IMG/VR virus record: IMGVR_UViG_3300017605_001304
Location: 1-64,000 of that record
Reading direction: 5' to 3' (one strand)
Source: a virus
DNA length: 64,000 bases
Shown: one piece after another, positions 9,031 through 53,990 of the stretch
Numbering within the stretch: the stretch's first letter is position 1
Layout of the letters: each line of letters opens with the position of its first letter
Notes under the pieces: model-generated
Database searches by the model: none
What the model was told of the DNA's origin: nothing
Seen by the model: only the letters and a program-made list of their open reading frames with translations
Position numbers and translations under genes: made by a program

Positions 9031-9061
9031 GTGTCCTCCCACGGAATGTCCACTTTCTGAA

Positions 9062-39757: not shown

Positions 39758-39785
39758 AAGCTACCAGACCTGTATTACAGGTCAA
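39758..39785 (-). promoter_or_regulatory. promoter overlapped by palindromic operator
   Basis: Minus-strand -35 TTGACC, 16-base spacer, -10 TAGCTT. The spacer contains the palindrome GACCTGTAATACAGGTC (39767-39783), perfect except the central base. It would drive the DUF932-like gene from about 50 bases upstream. Confidence 0.8.
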
Positions 39786-39836
39786 GAGGTATTCCTGAAA
39801 AATCTCTCTAGGCGGTATCCGCCCCATGAAAAAGAA

Positions 39837-39875
39837 CCGCCCGGGGCCGTACAGCATGGCGGTGACCCCGGGCGG
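39837..39875 (-). terminator. intrinsic terminator
   Basis: A 10-bp GC stem CCGCCCGGGG/CCCCGGGCGG around a 19-nt loop; minus-strand tail GGTTCTTTTTC. It ends the operon that begins at the 41.6 kb promoter. Confidence 0.85.
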
Positions 39876-39899
39876 CCTCGCAAAGGGAGAGGGCCTTCG

Positions 39900-40661
39900 T
39901 CAGGCCGTCTTGTTTTCCACGATCTTGTCCAGCTCGGCCATGGCCGACGCGTCGAAGAGGCCGTTGACGGCCGCCGCGGCGTGGTTCGCACCCGGGCCGG
40001 CGCCTTGGCGCCGCTGCTCATCCTCCGTGCCGACGAGGAGCCCGAGCTCGCTGGTTCGAGCGAGCTCCTCCAGCGCCTGCGCGTCGAGGTCCCGACTCTG
40101 CATCAGCGCGGCACGAAGGAGCCCCAGGAAGCCCGCCGCGCGCTCGACCGGGTCGATCGACGTGCGATAGTGGACCTCCAAGACCCCATCCTGCACCTCC
40201 AGGCGGAGCTCGGGCGCCACCTGCAGCGGACCGTTGAAGAGGGAACGCGGCGGGAGTCCGACCAGCTCTTCGAGCTTCAGGCACAGCTCGGCTTCGCGCG
40301 CCGCCTTGGCCTTCTTCTCCGCGAGGTGGTCCTTGCGGGTCTTGACCGCGGCGCGGACCTTCTCGCTGAACTCGCCGAGCTTCGCGACGATGCCGTCGAA
40401 GTTCGCCTTTCCGGCCCGCACCGGAAACCACTGGCTGTGGTGGCAGTAGCCGTGGTTCGTCTTGACGATCACCTGCTGCGTGTCCGCCCTGGTCGTTTCT
40501 CGGAGCTCGACGAGGACCTGGGGGGTCGGGTCCTCGCTCTCGGGATCGCGCTCGACCGGCTCGAACACGAGCGTGCCCACGAGCGACAGCGACTCGTAGC
40601 AGCCGAGGTCGGGGCGCCGCTTCCCGATCTCCTCCTTCAGGATGCGCATGTTCAGCTTCAC
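39900..40661 (-). CDS. hypothetical protein
   Basis: 253 residues. Beta-rich N-terminal domain (SLVGTLVFEPVE, PQVLVELRETT, NHGYCHHSQWFPV), then a long charged helix (KVRAAVKTRKDHLAEKKAKA) and an acidic C-terminal region. Last gene of the three-gene operon controlled by the second palindrome promoter. GGAGGAGAG precedes the ATG. No family recognised. Confidence 0.75.
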   Translation of the reverse strand: MKLNMRILKEEIGKRRPDLGCYESLSLVGTLVFEPVERDPESEDPTPQVLVELRETTRADTQQVIVKTNHGYCHHSQWFPVRAGKANFDGIVAKLGEFSEKVRAAVKTRKDHLAEKKAKAAREAELCLKLEELVGLPPRSLFNGPLQVAPELRLEVQDGVLEVHYRTSIDPVERAAGFLGLLRAALMQSRDLDAQALEELARTSELGLLVGTEDEQRRQGAGPGANHAAAAVNGLFDASAMAELDKIVENKTA

Positions 40662-40686
40662 GGTTCTCTCCTCCTTGACGAAGTCC

Positions 40687-41106
40687 TCAGTTCCTCTTGT
40701 CCAAGTCGTGGGCGATGTACGACTTCACCCGGTTCTTCGGTCCGTAGCCGGCGGGCTGGTTGCCGTCCCCGCCCGGCGGTCCGCCGGACGAGCCGCCCTG
40801 CGCGCCACCGGCGGTGCCGGGCCCGTTCTTGTCGTCGGCGCAGTGAGCCGCGAGCTCGGTGTAGCCGCAGTTGCGGCACTGGAGCTGCAGCCAGTCCGCG
40901 CTGCCGGACTTCTCGTCCTGCACGAACGGCGGCTGCTCGAACTCGGCCGCGAGCGCCTTCTGGTAGGTGGGCTTGAACCAGTTGCCGACGAGCGAGGTCG
41001 GCGACACACCCGGCATCGGGCCCTGCGTGCACTTCGGACACTCAGGCGGGAACTCGAACTTGGGCTTCTCGGGTTCCGGCTTCTCAGGCTTCGACTTCTC
41101 GGACAT
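40687..41106 (-). CDS. zinc-ribbon protein
   Basis: 139 residues. A basic/acidic PEKPEPEK lead is followed by C-P-K-C near residue 22 and C-R-N-C near residue 78, forming a split zinc ribbon, then a glycine-rich segment. GGGG lies six bases before the ATG; a GTG two codons further up is possible. Middle gene of the operon at 41.6 kb. Role unknown. Confidence 0.75.
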   Translation of the reverse strand: MSEKSKPEKPEPEKPKFEFPPECPKCTQGPMPGVSPTSLVGNWFKPTYQKALAAEFEQPPFVQDEKSGSADWLQLQCRNCGYTELAAHCADDKNGPGTAGGAQGGSSGGPPGGDGNQPAGYGPKNRVKSYIAHDLDKRN

Positions 41107-41137
41107 GGTCATCCCCTTTGCGAGAGAGGTTGAACGG

Positions 41138-41557
41138 TCACTCCTGCGGATCGATCTGCAGGATCAGTTGCGGGTCGGACGGCTTCTGCAGCTTCGCGAG
41201 CATCGTGGACGGCACGCGGCCGTTCTTCACGGCGTCGTTCCACTTCTCCGGCACGATCTTGCGGGCCGTGACCTCCGCCAAGAGGTCCGGCTTGAACCGC
41301 GCGAGGTAGCGCAGCGTCTTCTCGGCGTCGAGCGACGGCTTGAGGCCCTTCCAGAAGGTCATCGCGCGTCCGAGCCGACGCGCGGTCGACCCCTTCTGCG
41401 GGACGCCGTTCTTCTGCAGGAAGTCCGTGAGCCACTTCCGCCGCGCGTCGATCTCTTCCGCGTACGCGTCGATCTGCGCGCACACCTCGTCGACCAGCTC
41501 GCACGGCGTCTGCTGCTCGGCACTCTGCACGAACTTCGGTGGCTCCAACTTCGGCAT
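41138..41557 (-). CDS. hypothetical protein, first gene of palindrome-controlled operon
   Basis: 139 residues, mostly helical (LVDEVCAQIDAYAEEIDARRKWL; AEKTLRYLARFKPDLLAEV). GGGAG lies six bases before the chosen ATG; a TTG six codons upstream is less likely. About 30 bases of leader separate it from the promoter. No family recognised. Confidence 0.75.
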   Translation of the reverse strand: MPKLEPPKFVQSAEQQTPCELVDEVCAQIDAYAEEIDARRKWLTDFLQKNGVPQKGSTARRLGRAMTFWKGLKPSLDAEKTLRYLARFKPDLLAEVTARKIVPEKWNDAVKNGRVPSTMLAKLQKPSDPQLILQIDPQE

Positions 41558-41594
41558 CGCTCGCTCCCTGCTCAAGGTCCTCAGTACGGCGGAG

Positions 41595-41622
41595 AAGGTA
41601 TCAGACCTGGATTACAGGTCAA
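41595..41622 (-). promoter_or_regulatory. promoter overlapped by palindromic operator
   Basis: Minus-strand -35 TTGACC, 16-base spacer, -10 TACCTT. The palindrome GACCTGTAATCCAGGTC (41604-41620) fills the spacer exactly as at 39.77 kb. It would drive the three genes down to the terminator at 39.84 kb. Confidence 0.8.
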
Positions 41623-41631
41623 GCGGAAATC

Positions 41632-42681
41632 TTACTCCATCGGTGCGTGGGGAACCTTTACACGCGCGAGCCCCAGCGCCGCCTCGGTCAGCGCCCCTTG
41701 ATATGGAAGGGCCGCCTCCCGGAGCGCTACCCACTCCTCGGGAGGCAGGGACGCCGGGTCGTGCTCCTGCGGCAGGTTCACGAACGAGACGTCGAACCCT
41801 CGTGCGTGGAGCTGGCGGCACAGGCGAAACGCGTAGGGCTGCGCGTCTCCGTCGAGCGCCACGAAGAAGCGGAGATCGCGGCCCGCCAACCGCGGCATCG
41901 CGGCCAGCATCTCGACCTGCTCCGGCGACACGAACTTGCCGAAGCTCGCGAGCGCATCCGGCCCCGCACGAACGGCCGAGATCACGCCCTCCGTGATCGT
42001 CACGGAATCGATCTCGCGTCGACGCAGTGCACGCAGCACGTCGTGGTAGCGGTAGAGCCGGAGCTTGCGCGGACAGCCCGGCGACGAGAGGTACTTCGGT
42101 CCCGTCTCGTCCTTCGCGAAGGAACGCGCCGACCAGAAGTCGAGCTCACCGCTCGCGTTGTAGTTCGGGAAGAAGATCCGCTGCATGTAGCGGCGCGACC
42201 CGACCTGCAGCTCGTGCGACTCGATCACGTCCGGCGTGATGCCGCGCTCCTCGACCAAGTAGCGGTGGCTCTCCATGCCCTCGATGATCTTGAAGACGGG
42301 ACACGGGAACTCGGCGAGGACGTCTTCTGCTTGCGCGGGAGCACTCTCGGTTCCGAGCTCGACCAGCGCCGTCAGCATCTCATCCCACGACGTCGCGTGC
42401 GTCTCGACGCCAATGCCGAGCTTGCGCAGCAGCGTCGCGACCGTGCCCTTCGCTTCGCAGTTGTAGCAGATGAACCAGCCGGTGCGGCTGAACTTGCCCC
42501 GGCTCTCGCGCTTGAACGGATTGACCATCAGGCGGTAGCGCGTGTCATCACGTGCATGGCCACGCTGCACGCAGAAGGGGCAGCACCACGCGAGTTCTTG
42601 GTCCCCCATGCGACGCGGTTCGCCGAGCACGTCGACGACCTGTCCGAGCACCGACGGCAGCGGCATCCGGTCGGGCCGCAT
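41632..42681 (-). CDS. DnaG-type primase
   Basis: 349 residues. N-terminal zinc ribbon with cysteines 33/34, 37, 72 and 75 (CCPFC, ICYNC), then the primase core with a TOPRIM fold: TEG (230-232) and ALDGD (275-279). It is shorter than bacterial DnaG and lacks its helicase-binding domain, as expected for phage primases. It lies just downstream of the helicase gene, giving a replisome gene pair. Confidence 0.92.
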   Translation of the reverse strand: MRPDRMPLPSVLGQVVDVLGEPRRMGDQELAWCCPFCVQRGHARDDTRYRLMVNPFKRESRGKFSRTGWFICYNCEAKGTVATLLRKLGIGVETHATSWDEMLTALVELGTESAPAQAEDVLAEFPCPVFKIIEGMESHRYLVEERGITPDVIESHELQVGSRRYMQRIFFPNYNASGELDFWSARSFAKDETGPKYLSSPGCPRKLRLYRYHDVLRALRRREIDSVTITEGVISAVRAGPDALASFGKFVSPEQVEMLAAMPRLAGRDLRFFVALDGDAQPYAFRLCRQLHARGFDVSFVNLPQEHDPASLPPEEWVALREAALPYQGALTEAALGLARVKVPHAPME

Positions 42682-42682
42682 G

Positions 42683-42850
42683 TCAGCTCTCCAGCAACTT
42701 GAACTCGTGGCTGCAGTGCGTGCAGAACTGCTTGCTGGTGCCCTCGGTCACGTTGTGGATCGAGAGCGACGGGCGGTTGCATTTCGGGCAGGCGATCTGG
42801 GACTCAGCCTTGACCACCACCGGCGGCTGCGGGACTTGGGGCTGCTCCAC
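42683..42850 (-). CDS. small zinc-ribbon protein, GTG start
   Basis: 55 residues. PPVVVKAESQIACPKCNRPS and KQFCTHCSHEFKL give a C-x2-C...C-x2-C ribbon. The GTG has GAGGAGGAA six bases upstream and lies within the 3' end of the helicase gene (47-base overlap); the stop is two bases before the primase start. It could be a transcription- or replication-associated adaptor. Confidence 0.8.
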   Translation of the reverse strand: MEQPQVPQPPVVVKAESQIACPKCNRPSLSIHNVTEGTSKQFCTHCSHEFKLLES

Positions 42851-44282
42851 TGCGTTCCTCCTCGGGTCCGCGTTGGCGGATGAGACACCGACTCAGGTCA
42901 ACTTGCAGCGGGATCTTGAAGCGGTCAGGACCCGAGCGCACCTTCTCGACGAAGAGCGTCATGCGTCCCTGCTCGCGTTCGATGTCCGTCTGCGACAGCG
43001 ACATCACGATGTGCGCCTTCTGGATCTTCTTCACTGAGTCCGAGACGGCGTCCATCCCCACCGAATCCTGGCGGTCGTAGCGCGAGCGCTGGATCTGACT
43101 CGCCGTCCAGACCGGGCAGGACCAGTCATGCGCGAGGGAGATCAGCTCGGCGTAGACGTCGCCGAATACCATGTAGGTCGTGTCGTTCTTCTGCGAGGTT
43201 CCGTGTTGGCGCGTCGGCGAGAGCTCGTCGGCGTAGTCCACGAACAAGACGTCGGGACCGCGGCCATCATCCAGCGCCGAGCGAGCCACGACGGCTCGGA
43301 CGGAAGAGACGGGAGCTCCGGGGTTCACGTACCAGATGTGAATCGTGCCGCCGCCAAGGCTGCGCAGGTGGCGGGCGCCGGCCTTGTAGTCGTCGGTCTC
43401 CGTCTCGACGTCCGAGATTGCTTGCCCAGTCAGGCGTGCGAGACAACGCACGAAGACGTCGTAGGCCGGCAGCTCGTTCGTGATGTAGACGACGCGCTGG
43501 CCCTGCATCGAGGACGCCGCCGCCATGTTCACCAGGAAGCTCGACTTGCCGAGCCCGGTGCGACCGAGCACCAGTCCGAGCTGGCCGCCGCCCAATCCGC
43601 CGCGGAGCGCGCTGTCGATCTTGCTGAAGGTCGTCGCCACTCTCCGTTTCGGATCCGCGATCGTGGAGCGGCAGCGGGACGGGTTGTCCGCGTTCGTGAA
43701 CACCTCGATGCCGGTCCCAACTCCGGAGCCCTTGAGCAGGGCCCGCTGGATCAGCGGGAGGATCTCGAAGTGCTTCTCCGAGTCGTCCGCGTGGTCGCGC
43801 AGGATCTCGATCGACTCCTGCAAGCCTTGGGTGAGTGCCCGCATCCGGCCGAAGTCCGCGACCTTCTCCTGGACGTACTTGCGGTCCGACGGCAGGTCGT
43901 ACTTGTAGATCTCGGCGACGTACTGTCGCACCTGATCCGCAAGGCCGGGGTCGAGTCCGTGCCGCTCGATGAAGCGGTTGCACTTCTCCGTGACGGTCGC
44001 CTGCGACGGGATCTCGTGGTGCTTCTTCGCATGCCGCAGGGCGATGCCTGCGACCAAGGCGATGTATTCGTACTCGAAGTACGACGCGTCCAGGACGTCG
44101 GTCAGCTCGAACAGGAACGTCGGGTCACGCAGCATCAGAGAGACGACGCTGCGCTGGAAACCTTGTGCAAATGGATAGTGATACTTCGCGACACCGTTCG
44201 TCGTTGCATGGCCATTCGTGTGGCCGTTACCGTTCAGGCTCGGCAAGCGGTTGACCGCAACGCCGTTACCAGAATCAGTCAT
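42804..44282 (-). CDS. DnaB-type replicative helicase
   Basis: 492 residues. A polar, repeat-like N-terminus (NGNGHTNGHATTNG) precedes a helical N-domain and a RecA-fold ATPase: Walker A GRTGLGKSS (240-248), Walker B VLFVDYADE (345-353), and an arginine-finger region near TLFVEKVRSGPD. It unwinds the fork as a hexamer with the adjacent primase. The C-terminal 25 residues overlap the small zinc-ribbon gene. Confidence 0.93.
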   Translation of the reverse strand: MTDSGNGVAVNRLPSLNGNGHTNGHATTNGVAKYHYPFAQGFQRSVVSLMLRDPTFLFELTDVLDASYFEYEYIALVAGIALRHAKKHHEIPSQATVTEKCNRFIERHGLDPGLADQVRQYVAEIYKYDLPSDRKYVQEKVADFGRMRALTQGLQESIEILRDHADDSEKHFEILPLIQRALLKGSGVGTGIEVFTNADNPSRCRSTIADPKRRVATTFSKIDSALRGGLGGGQLGLVLGRTGLGKSSFLVNMAAASSMQGQRVVYITNELPAYDVFVRCLARLTGQAISDVETETDDYKAGARHLRSLGGGTIHIWYVNPGAPVSSVRAVVARSALDDGRGPDVLFVDYADELSPTRQHGTSQKNDTTYMVFGDVYAELISLAHDWSCPVWTASQIQRSRYDRQDSVGMDAVSDSVKKIQKAHIVMSLSQTDIEREQGRMTLFVEKVRSGPDRFKIPLQVDLSRCLIRQRGPEEERSGAAPSPAAAGGGQG

Positions 44283-44682
44283 CGTCGCCCTCCTCGGGCG
44301 GAGCGACCGGCTCCGCTCCGGACAACTTCTGCAGCGCGCTCTTCACGATCTTCTTCAGACGCACGCGGAGCGGTGGAGCTTCGGGGTAACGGCGGAAGAA
44401 ACTCGCCAACCAGCCACTGATGTTTTCCTTCAGGCCGGTGTGGTCCTTCAACTGCCGCAGAACCAACCAATGGAAGTTCCAGCGCGTCCAGCGATCGCAG
44501 GCGCGGATGAACTTGGTGAAGTTCACGCCTTCGGGGACAGGAAAGCCGACGGAGAATTCCGGGCGCATGGACCCGAAGTCGCCGGTCGGAATGGTCATCC
44601 CTACCGTGATCTGGATGTGATCCGGACGGATCACGATCTTCGACGGTTCAGCTTCGGCATCAGGTACATCGATCGTTTCCAC
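44275..44682 (-). CDS. hypothetical protein upstream of helicase
   Basis: 135 residues. Strand-rich N-half (SKIVIRPDHIQITVGMTIP), aromatic middle (CDRWTRWNFHWLVLRQL), basic helix and acidic tail (PPEEGDDD). It overlaps the helicase start by eight bases and follows the UvsW-like gene, suggesting a replication accessory role. No family recognised. Confidence 0.75.
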   Translation of the reverse strand: METIDVPDAEAEPSKIVIRPDHIQITVGMTIPTGDFGSMRPEFSVGFPVPEGVNFTKFIRACDRWTRWNFHWLVLRQLKDHTGLKENISGWLASFFRRYPEAPPLRVRLKKIVKSALQKLSGAEPVAPPEEGDDD

Positions 44683-44690
44683 AATTCCTC

Positions 44691-46142
44691 CTAGGCGACG
44701 TAGCGAGCCGGCAGGTCCATCTCGACGTCGATTTCCTCTTCCAGGTAACTCTGGATGCGCTCACGCGAGTGGTTGCGCAGGTAGTGATGCGTCAAGTCAT
44801 CGAAGTCGATGATGATCGTGTCCGTCTTTCCCTCGTGTGAAGTCATGCCACGGAACGCGCGCTGTATGGTTTTGATCGGACTCTTCAATCCTCCCGCTAA
44901 GATCACGGCATCAAGATGGGGAATATCAATCCCTTCGTCCAGCACTTGCGACGCGATCAACACTTCGATCTTGCCGGTGCGGAGAGACTCCACTACACCA
45001 TCATGATCCATGTTAGATCGGCGTAGTTTGCCGAGCGGGCTGATCGTCGAGAGCGTATCCGCCGACCACGTGAATGCCGCCGAGGCACCGGCCGTGTGGA
45101 TGCTCTTCAGCAGGCTCTCGCCGTGCTCGATCCGCGAGACCAGCAAGAGCACGTGCCGCCCCTCTTTGGCCAATCGACAAGCTGCATCGACGATGATCTT
45201 GTTGCGGGCCCGATTGACCACGATCCCGAGGCGGTACACCGTAGGAAAGTGATCGCCCGAGAACTTGGGCTGCGTGATCTTCGCCATGTAGAGCTTCGGG
45301 TTGGCGAGGAAGCCCTTGTCCCGCAAGTAGCTCGACGAGATGTCGTAGATCAGCGGGCCGGTGGCGCCGACCATGTAAAGGTCGATCGGCTTCATGCGCG
45401 TGCCACGGTCGTGGAACGGCGTGCCGGAGAGGCCGAAGCGCCAAGGAGCCGCGCACGCTCGTGCGGTCGCGAGCCAGCTATCCGAGCTGAGGTGATGCAC
45501 CTCGTCGAAGATCAGCAGCTCCCGCGATCCGACCAGCTCGCACGCCCACTCCTCGCGCCGGCCGAGCGCCCCGTAGAGCGTCTGGACGGTCGCGATCACG
45601 TGACGGCCCTTCACCTCGCGCACGCCATCTCCAATCGTGCAGAGGTCCGGGACGCCCCAGGCCGAGAACGTCTTGAAGTGCTGGTTCAGGAGACGCAGGC
45701 GGTCGACGACCAGCAGCGACGGAACGTCCAGCAGCTTGATCAGCGCGGCGGCGTAAGCGCTCTTGCCCGACCGCGGCGGCGAGCGAACCACACCGCGGCC
45801 GCGAGCCAGCATGCGCTCGATGGCGGCGAGCTGGTAATCACGCAGCGTGATGCCGTGCAGGAGGTCCGGCGGGATCGGCCGCGTCAGCGTCGGGATGTCG
45901 TGGCTCGACGTGTAGGGGTAGTGCAGGTCGTCGAGCCGCTCCTCGATCAGCGGCAACAGGCCGGACGGGAAGCTGCGGTTGCCGGCGTCGTAGTAGCGGT
46001 GGACGCCGTCCCAGCGCCCCTCCTGATACGCGCGGGACTTGAACTTGTCGGGGTCGTCGATCGTCAGGATGCGGCAGAGTGCTTCCCATTCAATCGGCGT
46101 CGCCTGCACGCGAACGTCGGTCGCACCCTGAATGAAATGCAC
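44691..46142 (-). CDS. UvsW-like superfamily 2 helicase
   Basis: 483 residues from a GTG with GGAGG upstream. Motif I SPPRSGKSA (121-129), motif II FDEVHH (212-217), a T-x-x motif QTLYGAL, motif III FGLSGTPFHDRG, and motifs V/VI ASQVLDEGIDIP and QRAFRG. The N-terminal 95 residues match the substrate-recognition segment of UvsW. It remodels branched DNA in recombination-dependent replication. Confidence 0.92.
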   Translation of the reverse strand: MHFIQGATDVRVQATPIEWEALCRILTIDDPDKFKSRAYQEGRWDGVHRYYDAGNRSFPSGLLPLIEERLDDLHYPYTSSHDIPTLTRPIPPDLLHGITLRDYQLAAIERMLARGRGVVRSPPRSGKSAYAAALIKLLDVPSLLVVDRLRLLNQHFKTFSAWGVPDLCTIGDGVREVKGRHVIATVQTLYGALGRREEWACELVGSRELLIFDEVHHLSSDSWLATARACAAPWRFGLSGTPFHDRGTRMKPIDLYMVGATGPLIYDISSSYLRDKGFLANPKLYMAKITQPKFSGDHFPTVYRLGIVVNRARNKIIVDAACRLAKEGRHVLLLVSRIEHGESLLKSIHTAGASAAFTWSADTLSTISPLGKLRRSNMDHDGVVESLRTGKIEVLIASQVLDEGIDIPHLDAVILAGGLKSPIKTIQRAFRGMTSHEGKTDTIIIDFDDLTHHYLRNHSRERIQSYLEEEIDVEMDLPARYVA

Positions 46143-46280
46143 TCAGCGCCTCCAGAGTCTCCGTTTCGGAGTTACTCGTTTGAGCTCAGCACGAAGCAAC
46201 TGCAGCTCGGCCTCACGCTTCACGATTTCGAGCTTGAGCATCAGCCGTTGCTCATCCGGCGTCAGGTAGTCCGTTGTCAT
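46143..46280 (-). CDS. small charged helical protein
   Basis: 45 residues: TTDYLTPDEQRLMLKLEIVKREAEL, then LRAELKRVTPKRRLWRR, a single charged helix with a basic end. Its stop overlaps the UvsW-like GTG leader and the GGAGG that serves that gene lies in its last codons. It is short but well placed; function unknown. Confidence 0.65.
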   Translation of the reverse strand: MTTDYLTPDEQRLMLKLEIVKREAELQLLRAELKRVTPKRRLWRR

Positions 46281-46500
46281 CGTGACTCTCCCCCGGTTCG
46301 TCGAGCTGGGCCTCGCAGTACCGCGCGAGCTGCATCGACAGGCCGTAGCAGGTGAACACGTTGCCGTAGATGAACGGCCAGCTCGCGTCGGACTCGGCGT
46401 CGTGGTTCAGCGTCAGGTGCAGCACGATCGCCTCGGAACGTCGCGCCAACGCCTTCGCGAGATCCTCCGTCGATACGAGATCGAGCTCGTCGTCGGTCAT
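46252..46500 (-). CDS. hypothetical acidic protein
   Basis: 82 residues; DELDLVSTEDLAKALARRSEAIVLHLTL, then an aromatic middle (WPFIYGNVFTCYGLSM) and an acidic end. The ATG lies 15 bases after a terminator hairpin with GGGAGGG between. It overlaps the next small gene by 29 bases. Function unknown. Confidence 0.75.
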   Translation of the reverse strand: MTDDELDLVSTEDLAKALARRSEAIVLHLTLNHDAESDASWPFIYGNVFTCYGLSMQLARYCEAQLDEPGESHDDNGLPDAG

Positions 46501-46517
46501 AGTCCCTCCCAAAGAAC

Positions 46518-46553
46518 ATGGGCCCGCAGAGTCTTTCGACCCTACGGGCCCAT
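46518..46553 (-). terminator. intrinsic terminator-like hairpin
   Basis: ATGGGCCCG pairs with CGGGCCCAT; an inner GTC/GAC pairing extends the stem. The minus-strand tail GTTCTTT runs into the ribosome site of the next gene. Confidence 0.75.
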
Positions 46554-46589
46554 TCCGGGCCTCCACCAACCGTCTCAGACTCGGCTGGT

Positions 46590-47330
46590 TTAGTTCATCA
46601 CGACCTGCTTGTCGTACTCGCGGTCGACCCACCGGATCTCGCCGCGTTCCAGGCGCTCTTTCTCGCCCTGGTTCCACGCCGGCCGGTTCGCCCGCTTCAA
46701 GACGTCGTCCTCGTCGTGCATGAGAGCCAGCGCCAGCGCGCCGACCCGGTCCTCGACCGGGTACTGGAAGCTCGCGTGCATGCAGAACTTGTCCTTCGGC
46801 TTGCCGTCGTGGTCGAGCAGGTAGAGCTCGCCGCCGAAGCCGGGGTTGATCTCGAAGATCCCCGCCTTGCCGCGGTAGCGGACGATCTTCTTCGTCCGCC
46901 AGTCGCGCATCTGCTCCTCGGAGAGGATGAGCGACAGCATCTGCTCGGCGGTCTGCCGCTGCTTGCGGCGCTTCCACCGACGCTGGACCTTCGCCCGGCG
47001 CTGCTCCTCCGCCGTCGGCGGGACGTACACCTGCTGGTTGACCTGCTGATGGTTCCAGTGCTGCGTGTACCGGATCTGCCCGGTCCAGTTCGACCAGATG
47101 ATCCCGGCGTTCGTGACGGTGACCGTGGACGCCCCGCTCTCCCCGTACGTAGCGTTCGTCCAGGTCTTCCAGACGATGGGCGCGCTGATCGTCGTCGCGC
47201 TGCCGGTCACGTAGTTCCAGTTGTTCCAGACCGCGTTGGTGTACGTGATGCCGCCCGTGACGGACGTGACGGACGTGTCGGAGTCCGTGTTGTATCCCGT
47301 GCCCCCGCTGGTTGCCGCGTAGTACGGCAT
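46590..47330 (-). CDS. hypothetical two-part protein
   Basis: 246 residues. Residues 1-85 are rich in T, S, N, G and W (GGTGYNTDSDTSVTS, AVWNNWNYVTG), like a small beta or fibre segment. A highly basic linker (RRAKVQRRWKRRKQRQ, about 108-123) leads to a C-terminal alpha/beta domain (GIFEINPGFGGELYLLDHDG). The mix suggests a virion-associated or injected protein. No family recognised. Confidence 0.75.
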   Translation of the reverse strand: MPYYAATSGGTGYNTDSDTSVTSVTGGITYTNAVWNNWNYVTGSATTISAPIVWKTWTNATYGESGASTVTVTNAGIIWSNWTGQIRYTQHWNHQQVNQQVYVPPTAEEQRRAKVQRRWKRRKQRQTAEQMLSLILSEEQMRDWRTKKIVRYRGKAGIFEINPGFGGELYLLDHDGKPKDKFCMHASFQYPVEDRVGALALALMHDEDDVLKRANRPAWNQGEKERLERGEIRWVDREYDKQVVMN

Positions 47331-47333
47331 CGC

Positions 47334-47609
47334 TCAGCCGCCAACGACCGCCGCGGCCATGATGACCGCCTTCGCCTCGGGGTCGAACTTGCGCATGACC
47401 TCGGCCTTCTCGCCGCTCTTCTTCACGGCGTAGCCGACCATGCCGCGCTTCACGCAGTCGTCGAACGTGCGGCGCGCCGTCTCGGTCTCGTCCTGGTTCT
47501 CCGGATCCCAGATGACCTTCACGTCACCGGCGCTCGGATCCATGTAGCGGAGTACGTGCGGCTCCTTCGAAGCCGCGCTCTCCTCCAACATCTGCAACGT
47601 CCCAGGCAT
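47334..47609 (-). CDS. hypothetical small protein
   Basis: 91 residues. HVLRYMDPSAGDVKVIWDPENQDE and a C-terminus GEKAEVMRKFDPEAKAVIMAAAVVGG, in the style of small phage DUFs that modulate or cap larger proteins. AGAAGGAG precedes the ATG. Located directly downstream of the 48 kb gene. No family recognised. Confidence 0.75.
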   Translation of the reverse strand: MPGTLQMLEESAASKEPHVLRYMDPSAGDVKVIWDPENQDETETARRTFDDCVKRGMVGYAVKKSGEKAEVMRKFDPEAKAVIMAAAVVGG

Positions 47610-47653
47610 CGCTCGTGCTCCTTCTGGTAAGTCCGCTCCTCCGAGCGGAGTGC

Positions 47654-48172
47654 TCAACTCACAGGACTCTTCGGCCCCTCCTCGGTCGGCGGCTTCTTCC
47701 GCCGTGGCCGCTTCGGAACGCTCGGCGAGTCCTGCCGGGTCATGTTCGGTACTTCCATCTTCTGGATCTCGACCTTGCCCTGGCCGGCTGCCATCTCGAA
47801 CAGCGAGTGGAGGAAGCCGCCGGGGGCGACGGGGTCGGCCTGCCGCGGCGCCGGCTGCGCGGCCAGCATGTCCTGCGCGAACTCCTCGGAGATCTTGCGC
47901 AGCTTGACGTAGCGCGTGTCGAACACGACGCGCTTCGGCTGCTTCGCGAGGTCGCCGCTGGCGGTCGCGAGCCACTCCAGGAGCAGCATCGGGTGCTCGT
48001 AGCGGATGATCTTGAACAGGTGGTTGCGCAGGTCGGGATCGGGACCGATCCACGCCTGCCCCCAGCCGCGCTGGATGAACGCCTTCGACTCGAAGTCCAT
48101 GAACCACGCCTGCTCGATCGTCACGAACACGCCAGGAAGGTAGTCGTCAGCGGGAAGGGTTTTCACGATCAC
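47654..48172 (-). CDS. hypothetical protein
   Basis: 172 residues. N-terminal half is compact and aromatic (LPGVFVTIEQAWFMDFESKAFI); the C-terminal third is a proline/lysine/arginine tail (RPRRKKPPTEEGPKSPVS). The start overlaps the stop of the KOW-like gene (ATGA). No family recognised. Confidence 0.75.
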   Translation of the reverse strand: MIVKTLPADDYLPGVFVTIEQAWFMDFESKAFIQRGWGQAWIGPDPDLRNHLFKIIRYEHPMLLLEWLATASGDLAKQPKRVVFDTRYVKLRKISEEFAQDMLAAQPAPRQADPVAPGGFLHSLFEMAAGQGKVEIQKMEVPNMTRQDSPSVPKRPRRKKPPTEEGPKSPVS

Positions 48173-49119
48173 TCTCCTCCCGACAGCGAAGAGACCTGCT
48201 CCGTCACGTCGGGACTGATGTCGAACGGGGTATCGATGCGTCGACCTGACGTCGGCGTCGCCGTGCTGAAGATCCCCCAGCGCGTGAGACGGACCAGCTT
48301 CAGGATCGAGACCGGCAGCAGCGGGAGCGCGTAGCAGACCGGCCTCATCACAAGCTGCAGGCCCTTCCGCTTCGCCAGCCGATGCTCCACCGTCACACCG
48401 AGCTCCGGCACCGCCACGAACTGGACGTTGCCGGGCATGAGTCTACCACGCGCGAAGCGATAGTAGTTCATGCCGCGGCGAGGGTTCCGGGCCGGCTGCC
48501 AGATGTCCGACGGCCTGTAGACGTATCCGCGGTAGCAAGTCTGCGGCTTGCTGACCTGCTTCTTGATGCGCTTGGGCAAGCCCTCCAGCCAGCCCTCGGC
48601 GTACGCGATGTTCGGGTTCTTCGAGGGCACGAGGATGCGGCCGAAGAGCGTCGCGCGGTGCACCAGCAAGACCGGCGTCTTGATCGCGAAGACGTTCGCG
48701 GCGAAGTGCACCGAGCTGCCGGCCTGCTCGATCCGGTCCTGCTCCGCCTGCCCCGAGAACCAGATCCAGTTCTTCGCGATCTGCACGTCCCACTCGTAGG
48801 GGTCGCGGCAGCGGAAGTAGTCGACGCCCTCGTTCCTGAGCTTCTGGATCTGGCGCGTCAGGTACGCGTACGGGTCACCGGGGTCGGGCTTCTTCGCGAG
48901 CTCCGCCTTGAGCCAGTCCTCGCCCACCTCGGCGCAGAACGGGATCGGGACCTCGACCACGACGTCGCGTCGCTGGAGCGCCGTGAGGCGGATCAGGAGC
49001 GTCCGCTCGCGGATTTCGTGCAGCAGGCCCACCCGCGGCGCGAGCGGCCCGTGGACGATCTCAACGCGTTCCCCGACGTGCAGGTCCCGGACGAGAGGCT
49101 TCCCCACCCGAACCCCCAT
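48169..49119 (-). CDS. KOW-like domain protein
   Basis: 316 residues. VGERVEIVHGPLAPRVGLLHEIRERTLLIRL resembles the KOW segment of NusG-type factors (G-E-x-V-x-I-x-x-G-P-x-x...G). The rest is a large unassigned region with many aromatic residues. An antitermination or transcription-associated role is possible. An upstream TTG five codons earlier is an alternative start. It is the first gene of the minus-strand unit leaving the 49 kb intergenic region. Confidence 0.65.
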   Translation of the reverse strand: MGVRVGKPLVRDLHVGERVEIVHGPLAPRVGLLHEIRERTLLIRLTALQRRDVVVEVPIPFCAEVGEDWLKAELAKKPDPGDPYAYLTRQIQKLRNEGVDYFRCRDPYEWDVQIAKNWIWFSGQAEQDRIEQAGSSVHFAANVFAIKTPVLLVHRATLFGRILVPSKNPNIAYAEGWLEGLPKRIKKQVSKPQTCYRGYVYRPSDIWQPARNPRRGMNYYRFARGRLMPGNVQFVAVPELGVTVEHRLAKRKGLQLVMRPVCYALPLLPVSILKLVRLTRWGIFSTATPTSGRRIDTPFDISPDVTEQVSSLSGGE

Positions 49120-49260
49120 TTCAGCCGACAGCAAGCCCTACCTGTCAGTATCGAAAACGGAGATTCGAAAATCTTCGCTCGCTACAAGTCGCTGGTAGGG
49201 AAGGTCTTATGGCCGTTCAGGCGCGCTGCACCCAGGTTCAGTCGTTCGGACGAGTGAACC

Positions 49261-49300
49261 TTGAACCTCCTGGAAACCCACGTTAACCTAGGTTCGACAA
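49261..49300 (-). repeat. copy F of hairpin repeat
   Basis: TTGAACCTCCTGGAAACCCACG with the partner arm AGGTTCGACAA; the loop is diverged. It lies 45 kb from the other copies, in the leader of the minus-strand block, in the same orientation as copies B to E. Confidence 0.65.
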
Positions 49301-49391
49301 GTGCGAGGGGTTCGCTCGGCTGTCCGTGCTCATCTCCTCCTGCGGAAGTCCTCCGCACCGCCGCTGCGAGCTCCTCTACTTCGCTGTTCGA

Positions 49392-49421
49392 GCCCCGGGT
49401 GCCCGCTCAGGCGCCCGGGGC
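49392..49421 (+). terminator. intrinsic terminator, plus strand
   Basis: GCCCCGGGTGCC pairs with GGCGCCCGGGGC at 11 of 12 positions around CGCTCA, followed by GTTTTC. No plus-strand gene precedes it, so it would end an unassigned short transcript. Confidence 0.8.
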
Positions 49422-49474
49422 GTTTTCATGCTGCGGGCCTGCCCGGTCGTCCGCCCCCGGGCCTGGAAACAACG

Positions 49475-49504
49475 CGACCCCTGCAGGAGGACCTGCAGGG
49501 GTCG
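49475..49504 (+). terminator. second strong hairpin, plus strand
   Basis: A perfect 13-bp stem CGACCCCTGCAGG/CCTGCAGGGGTCG with loop AGGA and tail TTGTCC. It follows the first terminator by 50 bases and could act in both directions. Confidence 0.7.
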
Positions 49505-49917
49505 TTGTCCGTCTACCTTGGGGAGGTGGTTGACTCGCGGTCCGCGCGACGGCATGCTGACCGGTGCGTAAGAGTCGGGCTCAGAGAGTACCCGCCAACT
49601 ACGCCGGGTCAAGGGCGTCGTCCCGTGAACGATGAGCCTGGGGTCCCACCTGTACCCCGCCAAACGGCGAACTCTACGGGGATCGGCCTCGGGTGTCCCG
49701 GCGCACAGCTCCGGGGCGATTCCCTCGGGGGCCTTAAAAGCCGAGGGAGGCGTGCCCAATCCTCTGAGCTCCCGCTGATCGCGCGGGGGCCGCCCTCTTC
49801 AGCCGTAAGGCGGGAGGGGGAAGGGGGTGGGCGTTTGACCCCTCTTGCCTTCGGACTTCTCCTAGTATCACCCCCAGGAATGGACACTTCTGTCACGGCT
49901 TACGAGGGGGATCGAGG

Positions 49918-50118
49918 ATGTTCAAGGACCGCTACCGCATGCGGTGGACCCGGGTCGGTGCTGCCGGGTACGTCGGACTCGCGATGCGGGCCTCCAGGAA
50001 CACGACGACGCTGCCGGTCACCGGCGGCAACGGGCAGGTCCTCTTCCTGATGCTGTGGAACCAGGGCACCACGCGCGTCGCGCAAGAGGTCGACCGGCTG
50101 CTCGGGGCACGTAGATGA
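49918..50118 (+). CDS. mini-gene array 2, first member
   Basis: 66 residues, MFKDRYRMRWTRVG to VDRLLGARR. The opening F-K-x-R-x-x-x-R-W recurs in the next two genes; the terminus LLGARR is identical to an array 1 protein and encodes a GGGGCACGTAG ribosome site for the next gene. GGGGG stands seven bases before the ATG. Function unknown. Confidence 0.75.
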   Translation: MFKDRYRMRWTRVGAAGYVGLAMRASRNTTTLPVTGGNGQVLFLMLWNQGTTRVAQEVDRLLGARR

Positions 50119-50330
50119 ACTTCAAGCACCGCTTCGATCTTCGGTGGCGCAACGCGCCGTGGCCGAGCTCCATCATGCCCACCTGGACGTTGCGGGTCGG
50201 TCCGGAAGACGAGCTGACCTTCTCGATGCTGGACGTCAACCGCATCGAGGACATGATGTTCGAGGCGAACCACGGCGCCGAGAACGTGTTCGCGATGAAC
50301 CTCAGCGGCTTGTTCAGGGACCGTTCATGA
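50115..50330 (+). CDS. mini-gene array 2 member
   Basis: 71 residues: MNFKHRFDLRWRN, then LRVGPEDELTFSMLDVNRIEDMMFEANHG and SGLFRDRS. It is the closest paralogue of the next gene, which shares the layout and the LFRDRS ending. Start and stop overlap neighbours by four bases. Function unknown. Confidence 0.8.
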   Translation: MNFKHRFDLRWRNAPWPSSIMPTWTLRVGPEDELTFSMLDVNRIEDMMFEANHGAENVFAMNLSGLFRDRS

Positions 50331-50557
50331 ACTTCAAGAAGCGCTACGAGTTCTGGTGGCAGCCGCAGCGAGAGTGGTTCGGTCGCGTGCCGGGAGAGGT
50401 CGAGTGCGCGCTGTCGATCGGCCCCGGCATCGGGACGATGGTCTTCACGGAGCAGGACGCCGGCAGCATCGGGGACCTCATCTTCAGCGTGAACCACAAC
50501 CCCCGCGGCGAGGGTTTCACCGCGCACCTGCAAGAACTCTTCCGGGATCGGTCATGA
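50327..50557 (+). CDS. mini-gene array 2 member
   Basis: 76 residues: MNFKKRYEFWWQP, SIGPGIGTMVFTEQDAGSIG and LQELFRDRS. The LFRDRS codons (TTCCGGGATCGG) hold the GGGA ribosome site of the next gene, and the same codons do this in the preceding gene. Coupled by ATGA. Function unknown. Confidence 0.8.
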   Translation: MNFKKRYEFWWQPQREWFGRVPGEVECALSIGPGIGTMVFTEQDAGSIGDLIFSVNHNPRGEGFTAHLQELFRDRS

Positions 50558-50775
50558 ACCCGCACGGCCGCTACTACGCGCAGTGGCACACGCAGCGAGG
50601 GTGGCGAGGCGGCAAGTCGCCGAAAGTTCACTACGTCCTGACGCTCGGCCCATGCAGCGACGAGATGGTATTCTCGTGGCAAGACGCTACGTCTGTCTCG
50701 GACCTGCTCGCGATGGACAGCCTCGGCGAGCGCAGCGTCGCCGTGAGCCTGGACCTCTTGCTCGGTGCATCATGA
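50554..50775 (+). CDS. mini-gene array 2 member
   Basis: 73 residues: MNPHGRYYAQWHTQRGW, LTLGPCSDEMVFSWQDATSV and LDLLLGAS. It aligns with the two genes upstream through the GPxxxxMVFxxQDAxS block. Coupled by ATGA on both sides. Function unknown. Confidence 0.8.
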   Translation: MNPHGRYYAQWHTQRGWRGGKSPKVHYVLTLGPCSDEMVFSWQDATSVSDLLAMDSLGERSVAVSLDLLLGAS

Positions 50776-50996
50776 ACATGGCCCGCGCCACGCTGTGTAC
50801 GCTCTACGTGAACGTCAGCGAAGGGGGTGACACACGCCTTTACTTCGATGGCTGGGGCCGTACGCCGACCACGTGGTATATGGCGACCCACGACTGGGTG
50901 CAGCTCACGTTCATGCGGCACCGCGTCGACCTCTGCTCGCACTGGCTCAACGTATTCAAGGACGACGCGCTGAGGACCCTGTTCAAGGCGGCATGA
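50772..50996 (+). CDS. mini-gene array 2 member
   Basis: 74 residues: LCTLYVNVSEGGDTRLYFDGWG, a middle rich in W and H, and the terminus LRTLFKAA. It keeps the strand-turn-strand start and terminal LF of the family. Coupled by ATGA. Function unknown. Confidence 0.75.
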   Translation: MNMARATLCTLYVNVSEGGDTRLYFDGWGRTPTTWYMATHDWVQLTFMRHRVDLCSHWLNVFKDDALRTLFKAA

Positions 50997-51256
50997 ACAT
51001 GAGCATGCGTACCCGTGCCGCGACCGAGTGCCACTGGAACTTGGACAGCCTGAGTGCGGGTGACCTCGCGGTGTATTTCTACCGCGGCGGCATGCAGGTC
51101 TGCGCCATCGCGGTCACCGCCGCCCTCGCTGACGCGATGCTCCAGCTTCGCGACCGTCGAGGGTCCTGCTGCGGCGACCTCGGGCACTGCTCGGTCGAGC
51201 ACAGCGGCGAGGCGGGCTGCAACGAGCTGAGCGACCTGCTCCGGAGCCTCTGGTGA
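50993..51256 (+). CDS. mini-gene array 2 member, cysteine-rich
   Basis: 87 residues. GDLAVYFYRGGMQVCAIAV resembles the next gene (AALYFYCGGRRIEGIAL). The insertion RRGSCCGDLGHCSVEHSGEAGC adds five cysteines and two histidines, a possible metal site. Terminus LLRSLW. Coupled by ATGA and GTGA. Function unknown. Confidence 0.75.
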   Translation: MNMSMRTRAATECHWNLDSLSAGDLAVYFYRGGMQVCAIAVTAALADAMLQLRDRRGSCCGDLGHCSVEHSGEAGCNELSDLLRSLW

Positions 51257-51480
51257 CCTTCCCGCAACTCACGCAGGTCCGCTGGGAGGCCGTCTGGCCG
51301 ACGAACGGCCCGGCTGCCGCGCTCTACTTCTACTGCGGGGGTCGTCGGATCGAGGGGATCGCACTCGACAAGAAGAGCTGGTTCGCGTTCATCGACCTGC
51401 GCGACGAGCTGGAGGGAGTCACCCTCTCCTTCCGGCTCGCCCTCTCCGACGCGGCGGGTGCTCTGTTCGGGGAACCGTGA
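51253..51480 (+). CDS. mini-gene array 2 member, GTG start
   Basis: 75 residues: ALYFYCGGRRIEGIALDKKSWFAFIDLRDELEG, ending AGALFGEP. It is paralogous to the gene before it. The GTG overlaps the upstream stop. Function unknown. Confidence 0.75.
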   Translation: MTFPQLTQVRWEAVWPTNGPAAALYFYCGGRRIEGIALDKKSWFAFIDLRDELEGVTLSFRLALSDAAGALFGEP

Positions 51481-51713
51481 TGTGGATCACGGATGAGGTC
51501 TTCGGCGAAGCAAAGCCGCTGCGCCTGACGGCGGCGCGCAGCAACGAGCTGTCCCGAGTCACGGTTGGCGTGGCCGGAGTGATATGGTCGACGTGCATCT
51601 GCTGGGTCTGCCGCGAGCAGATCGCGACGATTACGGAGTTGCGTCCCCTCTACGATCTCTTCGCTCCCGAAGGGAGCGTTCCTTACACCCTCGTGGACCT
51701 GTTCAAGCCATGA
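51480..51713 (+). CDS. mini-gene array 2 member
   Basis: 77 residues: MWITDEVFGEAKPLRL, VIWSTCICWVCREQIA, and the terminus LVDLFKP. The C-I-C-x-x-C cluster is distinctive. The ATG overlaps the previous stop by one base (TGATG); a GTG one codon earlier is possible. Function unknown. Confidence 0.7.
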   Translation: MWITDEVFGEAKPLRLTAARSNELSRVTVGVAGVIWSTCICWVCREQIATITELRPLYDLFAPEGSVPYTLVDLFKP

Positions 51714-51934
51714 CCACGCTCTCGATTCACGCGAGCTCGCCCATGTACAACCACGGGCTGCGGGTCGACCTCATCGTGGAGATGGAGTCGAAGTCGCTGT
51801 GCTTCTGCGGCAACTGGTCGCGGTGGGACGTGATGACGCCGCTGCTGGAGCTCAACCTGCCGCGCGTTGACGTCGACCTGCGGGAGTGCATGGGGACGGT
51901 GCTGGGGGTTGAGAGCGATACGTCGCCTGAGTGA
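51710..51934 (+). CDS. mini-gene array 2, last member
   Basis: 74 residues: LRVDLIVEMESKSLCFCGNWSRWDVMTPLLELNLPRVDVDL. Coupled by ATGA to the previous gene. Its 3' end overlaps the convergent HTH gene tail-to-tail by 83 bases. Function unknown. Confidence 0.65.
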   Translation: MTTLSIHASSPMYNHGLRVDLIVEMESKSLCFCGNWSRWDVMTPLLELNLPRVDVDLRECMGTVLGVESDTSPE

Positions 51935-52271
51935 CCACGCGGGCGATCGTGTCGATCGAGACGCGGTACGCCTCCGCCAGGGCCCGGTAGGGCAGGCGCT
52001 GCGTCTCGCGCAGGCGGCGGATCTCCTCGACCGAGTCCGGGCTCAGGGCCCGTCCGTGAGCGCCGCGCTCGCTCGGCCGCGACCAGGAGAGGCGCGCCCC
52101 TCGCATCGAGGGCAGGATCGGTCCGCCCCACCCCCGGCGCGTGATCCCGCGGCAGAGCTTGTGGACGGCGGACGGCGTCACGCGAAAGCGTAAGGCGAGC
52201 AGCTTGGCGGCGTGGCCACGAGCTCGCAGCTCGCGCAGCTCTCTGACCTCGGACTCTTCGAGCGTCCTCAT
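51852..52271 (-). CDS. two-HTH regulator, probably leaderless
   Basis: 139 residues. Residues 7-38 (RELRELRARGHAAKLLALRF, VTPSAVHKLC) and 77-112 (VEEIRRLRETQRLPYRALAE, VSIDTIARVV) are two helix-turn-helix units like those found with HNH endonucleases. No nuclease domain is present. The ATG has no ribosome site and lies about 8 bases downstream of a -10 hexamer, so the mRNA is probably leaderless. It is divergent from the operon at 52.38 kb and is the best candidate for the protein that binds the shared palindromes. Confidence 0.75.
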   Translation of the reverse strand: MRTLEESEVRELRELRARGHAAKLLALRFRVTPSAVHKLCRGITRRGWGGPILPSMRGARLSWSRPSERGAHGRALSPDSVEEIRRLRETQRLPYRALAEAYRVSIDTIARVVTQATYRSQPPAPSPCTPAGRRQRAAG

Positions 52272-52279
52272 GGAACGGG

Positions 52280-52307
52280 ATCGTACGGGGCGGGACCTGT
52301 AATACAA
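52280..52307 (-). promoter_or_regulatory. promoter of the two-HTH regulator
   Basis: Minus-strand -35 TTGTAT, 16-base spacer, -10 TACGAT, with the -10 only eight bases from the ATG. A palindrome-like site, GACCTGTAATACAAG (52294-52308 on the plus strand), overlaps the -35, allowing autoregulation. Confidence 0.7.
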
Positions 52308-52312
52308 GAGGC

Positions 52313-52340
52313 TTGACCTGTAATCCAGATATGGTATGAT
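52313..52340 (+). promoter_or_regulatory. promoter with operator for the four-gene operon
   Basis: Plus-strand -35 TTGACC, 16-base spacer, -10 TATGAT. The spacer holds GACCTGTAATCCAGAT, the same position and near-same sequence as at 39.77 and 41.60 kb. This site and the one over the divergent promoter are 21 bp apart, two helical turns. Confidence 0.85.
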
Positions 52341-52379: not shown

Positions 52380-52988
52380 ATGGGAACGCGTGCACGGCAT
52401 CAGGCGTTGAACGCGGAGTGGCCGGCGGTCGTCCCGCCGCTCTCGTACGAGGAGGCGGTGCGGGCCACGAAGAAGCTGCTCCGCGCCGAGCTCAAGATCA
52501 AGCCGCAGGAGTTCAAGCGCACGTCGGGACGACGGTACACGTGGCGGCGGCACGGCGTCTGGTACATCAACCCGAGCCGAGGCTGGCTCGACCTCGTCCA
52601 TGTCCTCTCGCACTACGTGTTCATGCGGACGCACACCCGGCTCCGGCCGCATCACTGGAAGCACGCGAACGTCGAGGCTCGGATGATCCGTACGGTCTTG
52701 CAACGCGGCTGGCTCGACGGCAAGCTGAAGCCGTCGGTGAAGCCCGAGAAGACGCCGGTGGATCGGCTGGAGCGTCTGAAGGGGAGGCTCGTGCGGTGGG
52801 AGGCGAAGAAGCGGCGGGCCGAGAACGCGATCCGGAAGCTCACGAGGAGCATCCGCGCGATCGAGCGCTGCAGAGCCGTCGCCTCGCTCGACCCGACTAC
52901 CGCTTCGTCCACGAACTCATCGAGTATTTCCCCTCTCAACCGATGCGGGGAGACACCTGGATCCTCCTGCACCAGTTCTCCCGCCTGA
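52380..52988 (+). CDS. hypothetical basic protein, first gene of operon
   Basis: 202 residues. Middle region with clustered histidines (WLDLVHVLSHYVFMRTHTRL, then HHWKH) that could bind metal, followed by a basic coiled coil (LERLKGRLVRWEAKKRRAEN). The ATG has AAAGGAGG six bases upstream. Its early promoter and divergent regulator suggest early expression. No family recognised. Confidence 0.8.
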   Translation: MGTRARHQALNAEWPAVVPPLSYEEAVRATKKLLRAELKIKPQEFKRTSGRRYTWRRHGVWYINPSRGWLDLVHVLSHYVFMRTHTRLRPHHWKHANVEARMIRTVLQRGWLDGKLKPSVKPEKTPVDRLERLKGRLVRWEAKKRRAENAIRKLTRSIRAIERCRAVASLDPTTASSTNSSSISPLNRCGETPGSSCTSSPA

Positions 52989-53040
52989 ACACGGTGGTTA
53001 CCGCATCTGCACTAGCTTCGATCCTGGGAAGGAGATGAGC

Positions 53041-53652
53041 ATGTCTGATCCGTGCGGTCCGGAGTGGGACGCGGTCGTGCCGTTCCTCGTGAACCTCGCG
53101 ACGCAGAGCAAGGTGCCCAAGATCGCCTGCACCCGCTGCGGCGCGATGATGTTCCAGAAGACGGAGAAGCTCGTCACGCACTACGGCGTCGCCTTCTCCG
53201 CGGACGGGACGACGCACACGATCGAGCGCTGCGAGCCGCGCGGGGTCCAGCGGCGGGTCTGGGGAGAGCGCCCGAGCCGGTCGCCCAAGGACGCCATGTC
53301 TTCCTTGCTGGAAGACATGACCCACCAGCTCCCCTGTAAGAAGTGTCACAACGACGTCCGTGCGCTCAGTTCGAAGCTGAGCGGATTCTTCTGGTTCTTC
53401 TACCAGCCCGACAGCCCGAGTCGGGTCTCTCCGAAGATCGCCTTCGAGCACGACGGCACCCCGCACGAGAAGGTCTGCATCGGGCTGAAGCGCAAGCCGA
53501 GCGTGCTGCCGAAGCTGGTTCACGCGACGCCGATGGTCCTGACGCTGCTGGCCGTCGTCGGCCTGTTCCGCGAAGCCGTGCTCCACGTCGACGCGATCCG
53601 TGCCACCGCCGTGCACGCCCTGCAGGCCCTGCTCGACTTCATCAAGAACTGA
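53041..53652 (+). CDS. zinc-knuckle protein with C-terminal membrane segment
   Basis: 203 residues. C-T-R-C near residue 37 and C-K-K-C near 101 suggest two zinc-binding loops; VLTLLAVVGLFREAVL near the C-terminus could be a membrane anchor. GGAG with ATGAGC before the ATG copies the leader of the previous gene. Function unknown. Confidence 0.75.
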   Translation: MSDPCGPEWDAVVPFLVNLATQSKVPKIACTRCGAMMFQKTEKLVTHYGVAFSADGTTHTIERCEPRGVQRRVWGERPSRSPKDAMSSLLEDMTHQLPCKKCHNDVRALSSKLSGFFWFFYQPDSPSRVSPKIAFEHDGTPHEKVCIGLKRKPSVLPKLVHATPMVLTLLAVVGLFREAVLHVDAIRATAVHALQALLDFIKN

Positions 53653-53654
53653 CC

Positions 53655-53987
53655 ATGACCAAGCGCGCACTCATCCACTACCGCTACGGCCGGTACGGCA
53701 ACGACCTCCTCTGGGCCCACCTCCGCCGCCGCGTCGGGCGGAGACGGAAGCTAGGGGCGGGCTGCGCCTGCGGCGACTGCACGCGCGAACGACGCCGCAG
53801 GCGAGAGCTCCCCGCCGGCCTGGGCACGATGCGGGCCGAGCTCGATCGCATCGGCTTCGCGCTCATGACTCAGCGGCGCCTCGCCCGCATCCTGACGAAG
53901 GAGCGCCCGCCTCGATCGGACCTAGAGGCGACGCCAGCGCGCGGCTTCTTCCTTCCCAACAACTTCTCCTTCAGCATGAACTGGTGA
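53655..53987 (+). CDS. hypothetical arginine-rich protein
   Basis: 110 residues. IHYRYGRYGNDLLWAHLRRRVGRRRKLGAGC, then C-A-C-G-D-C and a run of arginines. Strongly basic, so likely nucleic-acid binding. It follows the previous gene after two bases. Function unknown. Confidence 0.7.
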   Translation: MTKRALIHYRYGRYGNDLLWAHLRRRVGRRRKLGAGCACGDCTRERRRRRELPAGLGTMRAELDRIGFALMTQRRLARILTKERPPRSDLEATPARGFFLPNNFSFSMNW

Positions 53988-53990
53988 CCC

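Follow-up and report, generated by a model that had tools for sequence, protein, structure and literature searches.

The window analysed here comprises 64,000 nucleotides, bases 1-64000 of the IMG/VR virus record IMGVR_UViG_3300017605_001304, whose 149,155 bp (64.8% G+C) come from an uncultured phage of bacteria. A 17-base mirror-symmetric word of the general form ACCTGTA-W-TACAGGT lies at eight sites in this genome, three of them outside the window (66584, 75100 and 116089), and five of the eight stand inside promoters of the type TTGAC(C/A)-16-TANNNT, each with a start codon 36-57 nt downstream (Table 1). A sequence-only reading of the window had named GACCTGTAATNCAGGTC-type sites at five places (39767, 41604, 52315, 52294 and 3521), all of which were found by direct reading and by scan. 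It had also proposed that an operator shared across promoters defines a regulon and that the complete genome be scanned with a matrix; the scan yielded the three further sites, and the proposal gains support from them as well. The recurrence of this word, eight times in all and five times within strong early-type promoters, suggested that one DNA-binding protein probably switches the set off together.

The gene downstream of the 39767 site had been called DUF932-like, an identity not supported by profile search, which gave no PF06067 match; the gene matched PHROG 1362 instead. The operons behind the sites at 66584 and 116089 are runs of small genes starting at 66650 and 116145, and the 75100 site precedes gene 75136-75330.

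Table 1. Predicted sites, promoters, genes and candidate regulators, numbered from base 1 of the record (registers A and B are defined in the text)
Feature	Position	Strand	Description
Putative operator GACCTGTAATACAGGTC	39767..39783	-	perfect 8+1+8 palindrome, 0 mismatches; register A; matrix score 28.2
Putative operator GACCTGTAATCCAGGTC	41604..41620	-	0 mismatches; register A
Putative operator GACCTGTAATCCAGATA	52315..52331	+	2 mismatches; left arm intact, right arm degenerate (CAGATA); register A
Putative second operator GACCTGTAATACAAGAG	52294..52310	+	3 mismatches; left arm intact, right arm ACAAGAG
Putative operator ATCCTGTAATACAGATC	3521..3537	-	3 mismatches; intergenic, ~105 bp upstream of gene 1328-3424
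Putative operator	66584-66600		outside window; 1 mismatch; promoter TTGACC-16-TATCTT
Putative operator	116089-116105		outside window; 1 mismatch; promoter TTGACA-16-TATGCT
Putative operator	75100-75116		outside window; 4 mismatches over 17; core CTGTAATACAG exact
Predicted promoter TTGACC-16-TAGCTT	39758..39785	-	57 nt upstream of start codon 39701; reads TTGACC TGTAATACAGGTCTGG TAGCTT
Predicted promoter TTGACC-16-TACCTT	41595..41622	-	38 nt upstream of start codon 41557; reads TTGACC TGTAATCCAGGTCTGA TACCTT
Predicted promoter TTGACC-16-TATGAT	52313..52340	+	TG before -10; reads TTGACC TGTAATCCAGATATGG TATGAT
Predicted promoter	66577	+	reads TTGACC AGACCTGTAATACAGG TATCTT
Predicted promoter	116082	+	reads TTGACA CGACCTGTATTACAGG TATGCT
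Predicted sixth promoter TTGACG-16-TACGCT	11496..11523	-	degenerate half-operator only (11499-11515)
Upstream element GAGAGATTT	39800..39808	-	in window; one of only two copies in 149 kb
Upstream element GAGAGATTT	66554-66562	+	second copy
Gene, 418 amino acids	38445..39701	-	PHROG 1362 (unknown function); downstream of 39767 operator; register A
Three-gene operon (41138-41557, 40687-41106, 39900-40661)	39900..41557	-	no confident domain; register A
Operon of four small genes (52380, 53041, 53655, 53991)	52380..54335	+	unknown function; register A
Gene, 698 amino acids	1328..3424	-	DUF3604 match; downstream of 3521
Tandem helix-turn-helix protein, 139 amino acids	51852..52271	-	candidate regulator; adjoins 52294/52315
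Ribbon-helix-helix protein, 54 amino acids	11256..11420	-	candidate regulator; TacA1-like, 22.3 bits over cut-off 21
Winged-helix protein	12411-12839		further DNA-binding candidate
Mor-like protein	22114-22467		further DNA-binding candidate

Sites, promoters and registers

Within the window, seven strand-matches with at most three mismatches were found where 0.24 were expected, and none of 100 shuffles reached seven. When a matrix trained on the five window sites only was slid along all 149 kb, the eight sites scored 19.0-28.2 and the next best position 12.1; across 40 third-order Markov genomes, the highest score averaged 14.5 and never exceeded 18.8. Because the Markov genomes come this close, the site at 75100 (19.0) is the least certain on score, and it is backed by an exact 11-base core and by its position 28 bp before a start codon. 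All eight sites are intergenic in a genome whose intergenic share is 6.3%. Each of the three held-out sites, from the 85 kb that the matrix had not seen, has a + strand start codon 28-58 bp away, and the chance probability that all three are intergenic is 2.5e-4. The GT-N3-AC core reads GTAATAC or GTATTAC in six of the eight, and a weak second site (score 7.8 with a matrix from all eight sites) lies at 3480, 41 bp from that at 3521. Collectively, these results indicated that the shared word at promoters likely forms an operator-based regulon.

The spacer is 16 bp long in all five promoters, and the promoter at 52313 is the strongest sigma-70 match in 37-55 kb. Genome-wide, TTGAC-N17-TANNNT occurred eight times against 0.6 +/- 0.8 expected. 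Among the six promoter-like matches in intergenic DNA at most 80 nt from a start codon, five hold the palindrome, and those at 66577+ and 116082+ are the sole intergenic promoters of the TTGAC(C/A) type in the unseen 85 kb, both with the palindrome in their spacers. As for the half-site at 11499, one as good would be expected in about 0.2% of random 30-bp stretches, a figure noted after the fact. The earlier placement of the palindrome in the 16-base spacer of three TTGACC promoters held for the spacer length but not for the confinement to the spacer, because the palindrome opens with GACC, the end of the -35 element TTGACC; for example, the 39767 operator covers this -35 overlap plus 13 bp of spacer.

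The palindrome centre lies 10 bp from the first -35 base in the three window promoters (register A) and 15 bp from it at 66577+ and 116082+ (register B), a difference of 5 bp, or half a helical turn. The upstream element GAGAGATTT, which may be an UP element or the site of a second protein, starts 23 bp before the -35 at both 39785- (register A) and 66577+ (register B). Since the palindrome shifts while the spacer and the distance to GAGAGATTT stay fixed, promoter and palindrome are separate elements, which speaks against a copied promoter block and against a spacer sequence required by the polymerase, and in favor of an overlaid binding site. The location of the palindrome, ahead of where transcription is expected to start, excludes an RNA element or hairpin. 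Furthermore, the 52294 site is 21 bp (two helical turns) upstream of that at 52315, a tandem spacing that suits dimers side by side on the same face of the DNA.

A putative repressor regulon and its alternatives

In our judgment, the palindrome is probably the operator of one dimeric, likely phage-encoded protein that represses an early regulon, with repression by a phage protein as the most likely mechanism. Such a protein would bind ACCTGTA-W-TACAGGT at scattered early-type operons transcribed by the host RNA polymerase; at 39767, 41604 and 52315 it would cover the -35 and the spacer, and at 66584 and 116089 the spacer up to the -10, in both cases blocking the polymerase. Binding as a dimer is suggested by the symmetry of the site, repression by its overlap with core promoter elements, and early timing by the sigma-70 consensus together with the operons of small open reading frames of unknown genes. 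If so, an uncultured large phage gains a regulon defined from sequence alone, with eight sites and five promoters, and its operons of unknown small genes are probably co-expressed at an early stage of infection. With one operator in two registers on otherwise similar promoters, the phage also offers a natural experiment on how operator position relates to repression.

Several points weigh against this interpretation. The sequence does not distinguish repression from activation upon binding, and the phage candidates are linked to the site by proximity alone. No recognisable TTGAC promoter surrounds the 3521 site, and no convincing promoter was seen at 75100. Start codons and intergenic boundaries were taken from an ad hoc gene caller. 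In addition, no close relative was found, and a more distant one, a syntenic 63-kb record with 48% capsid identity, has no such site.

Other explanations have to be weighed against repression by a phage protein. An activator or dual switch, of the kind that phi29 p4 and T4 MotA represent at their promoters, would repress the early + strand operons and activate divergent late - strand genes at 66.5, 75.1 and 116.1 kb, and three sites do lie between an early-type + strand operon and a divergent - strand gene in the virion-gene region, with a baseplate hub match in the divergent neighbor at 66.5 kb. However, good -35 and -10 elements are present in each of the five promoters and the site overlaps them, the divergent start codon at 75100 is 20 bp from the site and thus too near for a promoter activated from upstream, and a late promoter signature was not recognised at the three places, all of which make such a switch quite improbable. 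The palindrome might also be a feature conserved within one type of phage promoter, read by a phage-modified polymerase or a sigma-like protein and not a repressor operator at all. The palindrome in five of the six recognisable promoters and the sigma-70 region 2 protein encoded at 37415-37798 agree with this, but the 5-bp shift against the -35 and -10 at a fixed spacer, the sites lacking a recognisable promoter (3521 and 75100), the extra upstream copy at 52294 and the symmetry of the word, which is typical of dimeric regulators and not of sigma contacts, render it very improbable. Chance repetition or a non-regulatory repeat is scarcely credible: palindromes with 8-bp arms are common in the phage genome, but it is the repetition and placement that stand out, and the gap in matrix score, the all-intergenic placement and the three held-out sites refute chance on sequence statistics.

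The protein could, on the other hand, be a metabolic regulator of the host from the GntR/FadR (FCD) group, whose operator was set in the phage early promoters so that host metabolism switches the phage; we consider this unlikely. The phage itself has no gene with a GntR domain, and the GTA-N-TAC core of its sites, in which three bases separate GT from AC, agrees with the published FadR-subfamily consensus, which has a palindromic GT-N3-AC core (PMC4494728). Across about 85,000 genomes of bacteria and archaea, GACCTGTAWTACAGGTM was found at 37 places, most of them within open frames; among these is TTGACCTGTAATACAGGTATTGGTAGCAT, from a Bryobacteraceae genome. Perfect ACCTGT-N3-ACAGGT sites number five in this genome, on two contigs only, and the same half-sites are found there in TTGACC promoters: three of the five have the form TTGACCTGT-N3-ACAGGT, one is TTGACCTGTAATACAGGT followed by TGGTAGCAT, nearly the phage promoter, and one adjoins a GntR+FCD regulator gene. 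A cellular GntR/FCD regulator thus appears to use the same site at the same promoter position in Bryobacteraceae, a parallel that does not show whether the phage meets that regulator.

Against the host regulator, the phage gave no host assignment: no tRNA genes were found in its record, and there was no PF00589 match to a tyrosine integrase across the 149-kb record, which may be incomplete. Moreover, the 18-mer TTGACCTGTAWNNCAGGT is confined to 1 of 297 Acidobacteriota genomes and, at one mismatch, seldom occurs in the rest of the family. The 17-mer also occurs in unrelated regulatory-looking sites and near other regulator types, for example ahead of a Curtobacterium MFS-type gene and close to Xre-NUDIX genes of Streptomyces, so half-site similarity does not name a protein. 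The more specific proposal, that a host carbon-metabolism repressor (GntR/FCD) has its operator over the early promoters and that the metabolic state of the host decides transcription of five dispersed early operons, is decidedly unlikely; if the protein were the host's, the phage would be reading host metabolism.

The Bryobacteraceae sites appear to form a local regulon of their own (stretches 8900-10023 and 7700-9720), with the GntR+FCD gene and with sites upstream of secreted cupin-type, PQQ-dehydrogenase-like and sugar-related genes. In Streptomyces genomes, a common longer palindrome surrounds CCTGTAWTACAGG, with arms of the GATGC..GCATC type, near Xre-regulator and NUDIX genes, a setting that looks like a conjugative element.

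Candidate binding proteins and known systems

Within the reading as a phage repressor, the tandem helix-turn-helix (HTH) protein beside 52294 and 52315 ranks as the most likely binder, although tentatively. The sequence-only reading had cast a two-HTH protein as repressor of the set and of its own gene; a domain match shows the protein to be real (HTH_31 at 28.2 bits, above the Pfam cut-off), but its part as binder, repressor or autoregulator is putative, and other candidates exist. It contains the one HTH_3-type match in the whole phage, a sub-threshold one, and its gene start is 31 bp from the centre of the divergent operator 52294. Three findings weigh against it as the binder: its codon usage is poor (low codon score), its structure model is of low confidence, and the divergent promoter claimed at 52294 is weak (TTGTAT-16-TACGAT, with 3/6 and 4/6 agreement with consensus), even though the site itself is present. 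No Shine-Dalgarno sequence was seen before its ATG, and the predicted transcription start lies near the ATG; its message may be leaderless, as in a repressor message, and the protein possibly acts on its own gene.

The 54-amino-acid ribbon-helix-helix protein ranks second as binder and is a doubtful choice; its own promoter (TTGACG-16-TACGCT) carries a degenerate site only. Another phage protein is about equally doubtful, and a host protein unlikely. The structure models of the two main candidates were of low confidence (mean predicted local distance difference test scores of 58 and 67), and no solved natural relative was found for either; the weak matches that one of the two gave are designed proteins.

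Dispersed phage operators are a known kind of viral gene switch, of which this phage is a new example; membership in the lambda, L5 or Arc group is not claimed. The CI/Cro operators of lambdoid phages (lambda, 434) are imperfect palindromes on the 17-bp scale over the -35 and spacer, several per genome, with the repressor gene beside divergent operators. The sites described here are likewise 17-bp palindromes over the -35 and spacer, several per genome, but they are dispersed over 113 kb at separate operons instead of being clustered at one switch, and neither a tyrosine integrase nor a CI-like protein was recognised in the phage. P22 Arc is a very small ribbon-helix-helix repressor with its operator between -10 and -35. 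The phage also encodes a ribbon-helix-helix protein, whose binding here is only putative, but the Arc profile match to it is weak (E 0.033, below the cut-off). Cluster A (L5-like) mycobacteriophages are reported to have many dispersed sites, a repressor with two DNA-binding domains and down-regulated early promoters (PMC9283540). The phage resembles them in its dispersed sites and, putatively, in a regulator with two DNA-binding domains and in the down-regulation of early promoters. The L5 stoperators, however, are asymmetric, lie in many cases away from promoters and also terminate elongation genome-wide, whereas the phage sites are symmetric and are all intergenic upstream of genes.

Relatives and genome background

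The 63-kb relative came from a search with the capsid protein; protein searches that started from the helicase or the PHROG 1362 gene yielded no relatives. Its three TTGAC promoters have no common palindrome in their spacers. In the region of the relative that matches 49-54 kb of the phage, CTCCCCCTATAGGGGGAG occurs twice (9165-9182 and 9349-9366 of its record), 184 bp apart, within perfect palindromes of 22-24 bp. Exact-pattern scans of IMG/VR gave 36 contigs with TTGACCTGTAATNCAG and 49 with ACCTGTAWTACAGGTM, none resembling a relative, and promoter-like contexts were present only in AT-rich contigs with one common sequence. The DNA of 39-42 kb had no match among isolated phages.

The genome bears the marks of a large contractile-tailed phage, with matches to a capsid protein (PHROG 138), portal, baseplate hub, DnaB-type helicase, primase and DNA polymerase, and its major head protein is of the phage T4-like type. 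The majority of genes are on the - strand, and + strand small-gene operons begin at 49.9, 52.4, 66.6, 71.6 and 116.1 kb. Very small genes (40-90 amino acids) stand in long runs at 3560-7148 (-) and 49918-51934 (+) of the window and at 132.5-149 kb (-) of the genome, with almost no domain matches in these three runs; some are apparently paralogous, with the forms MNFKHRF..RW, MNFKKRY..WW and MNPHGRY..QW at 49918-50775. The sigma-70 region 2 protein at 37415-37798 (-) has 127 amino acids and a match of 26.6 bits, over the cut-off, and it is possibly a phage sigma factor serving other gene classes. Strong terminator-like hairpins lie at operon ends at 49475-49504 (-), 49392-49421 (+) and 38364-38390 (-), the last directly 3' of gene 38445-39701.

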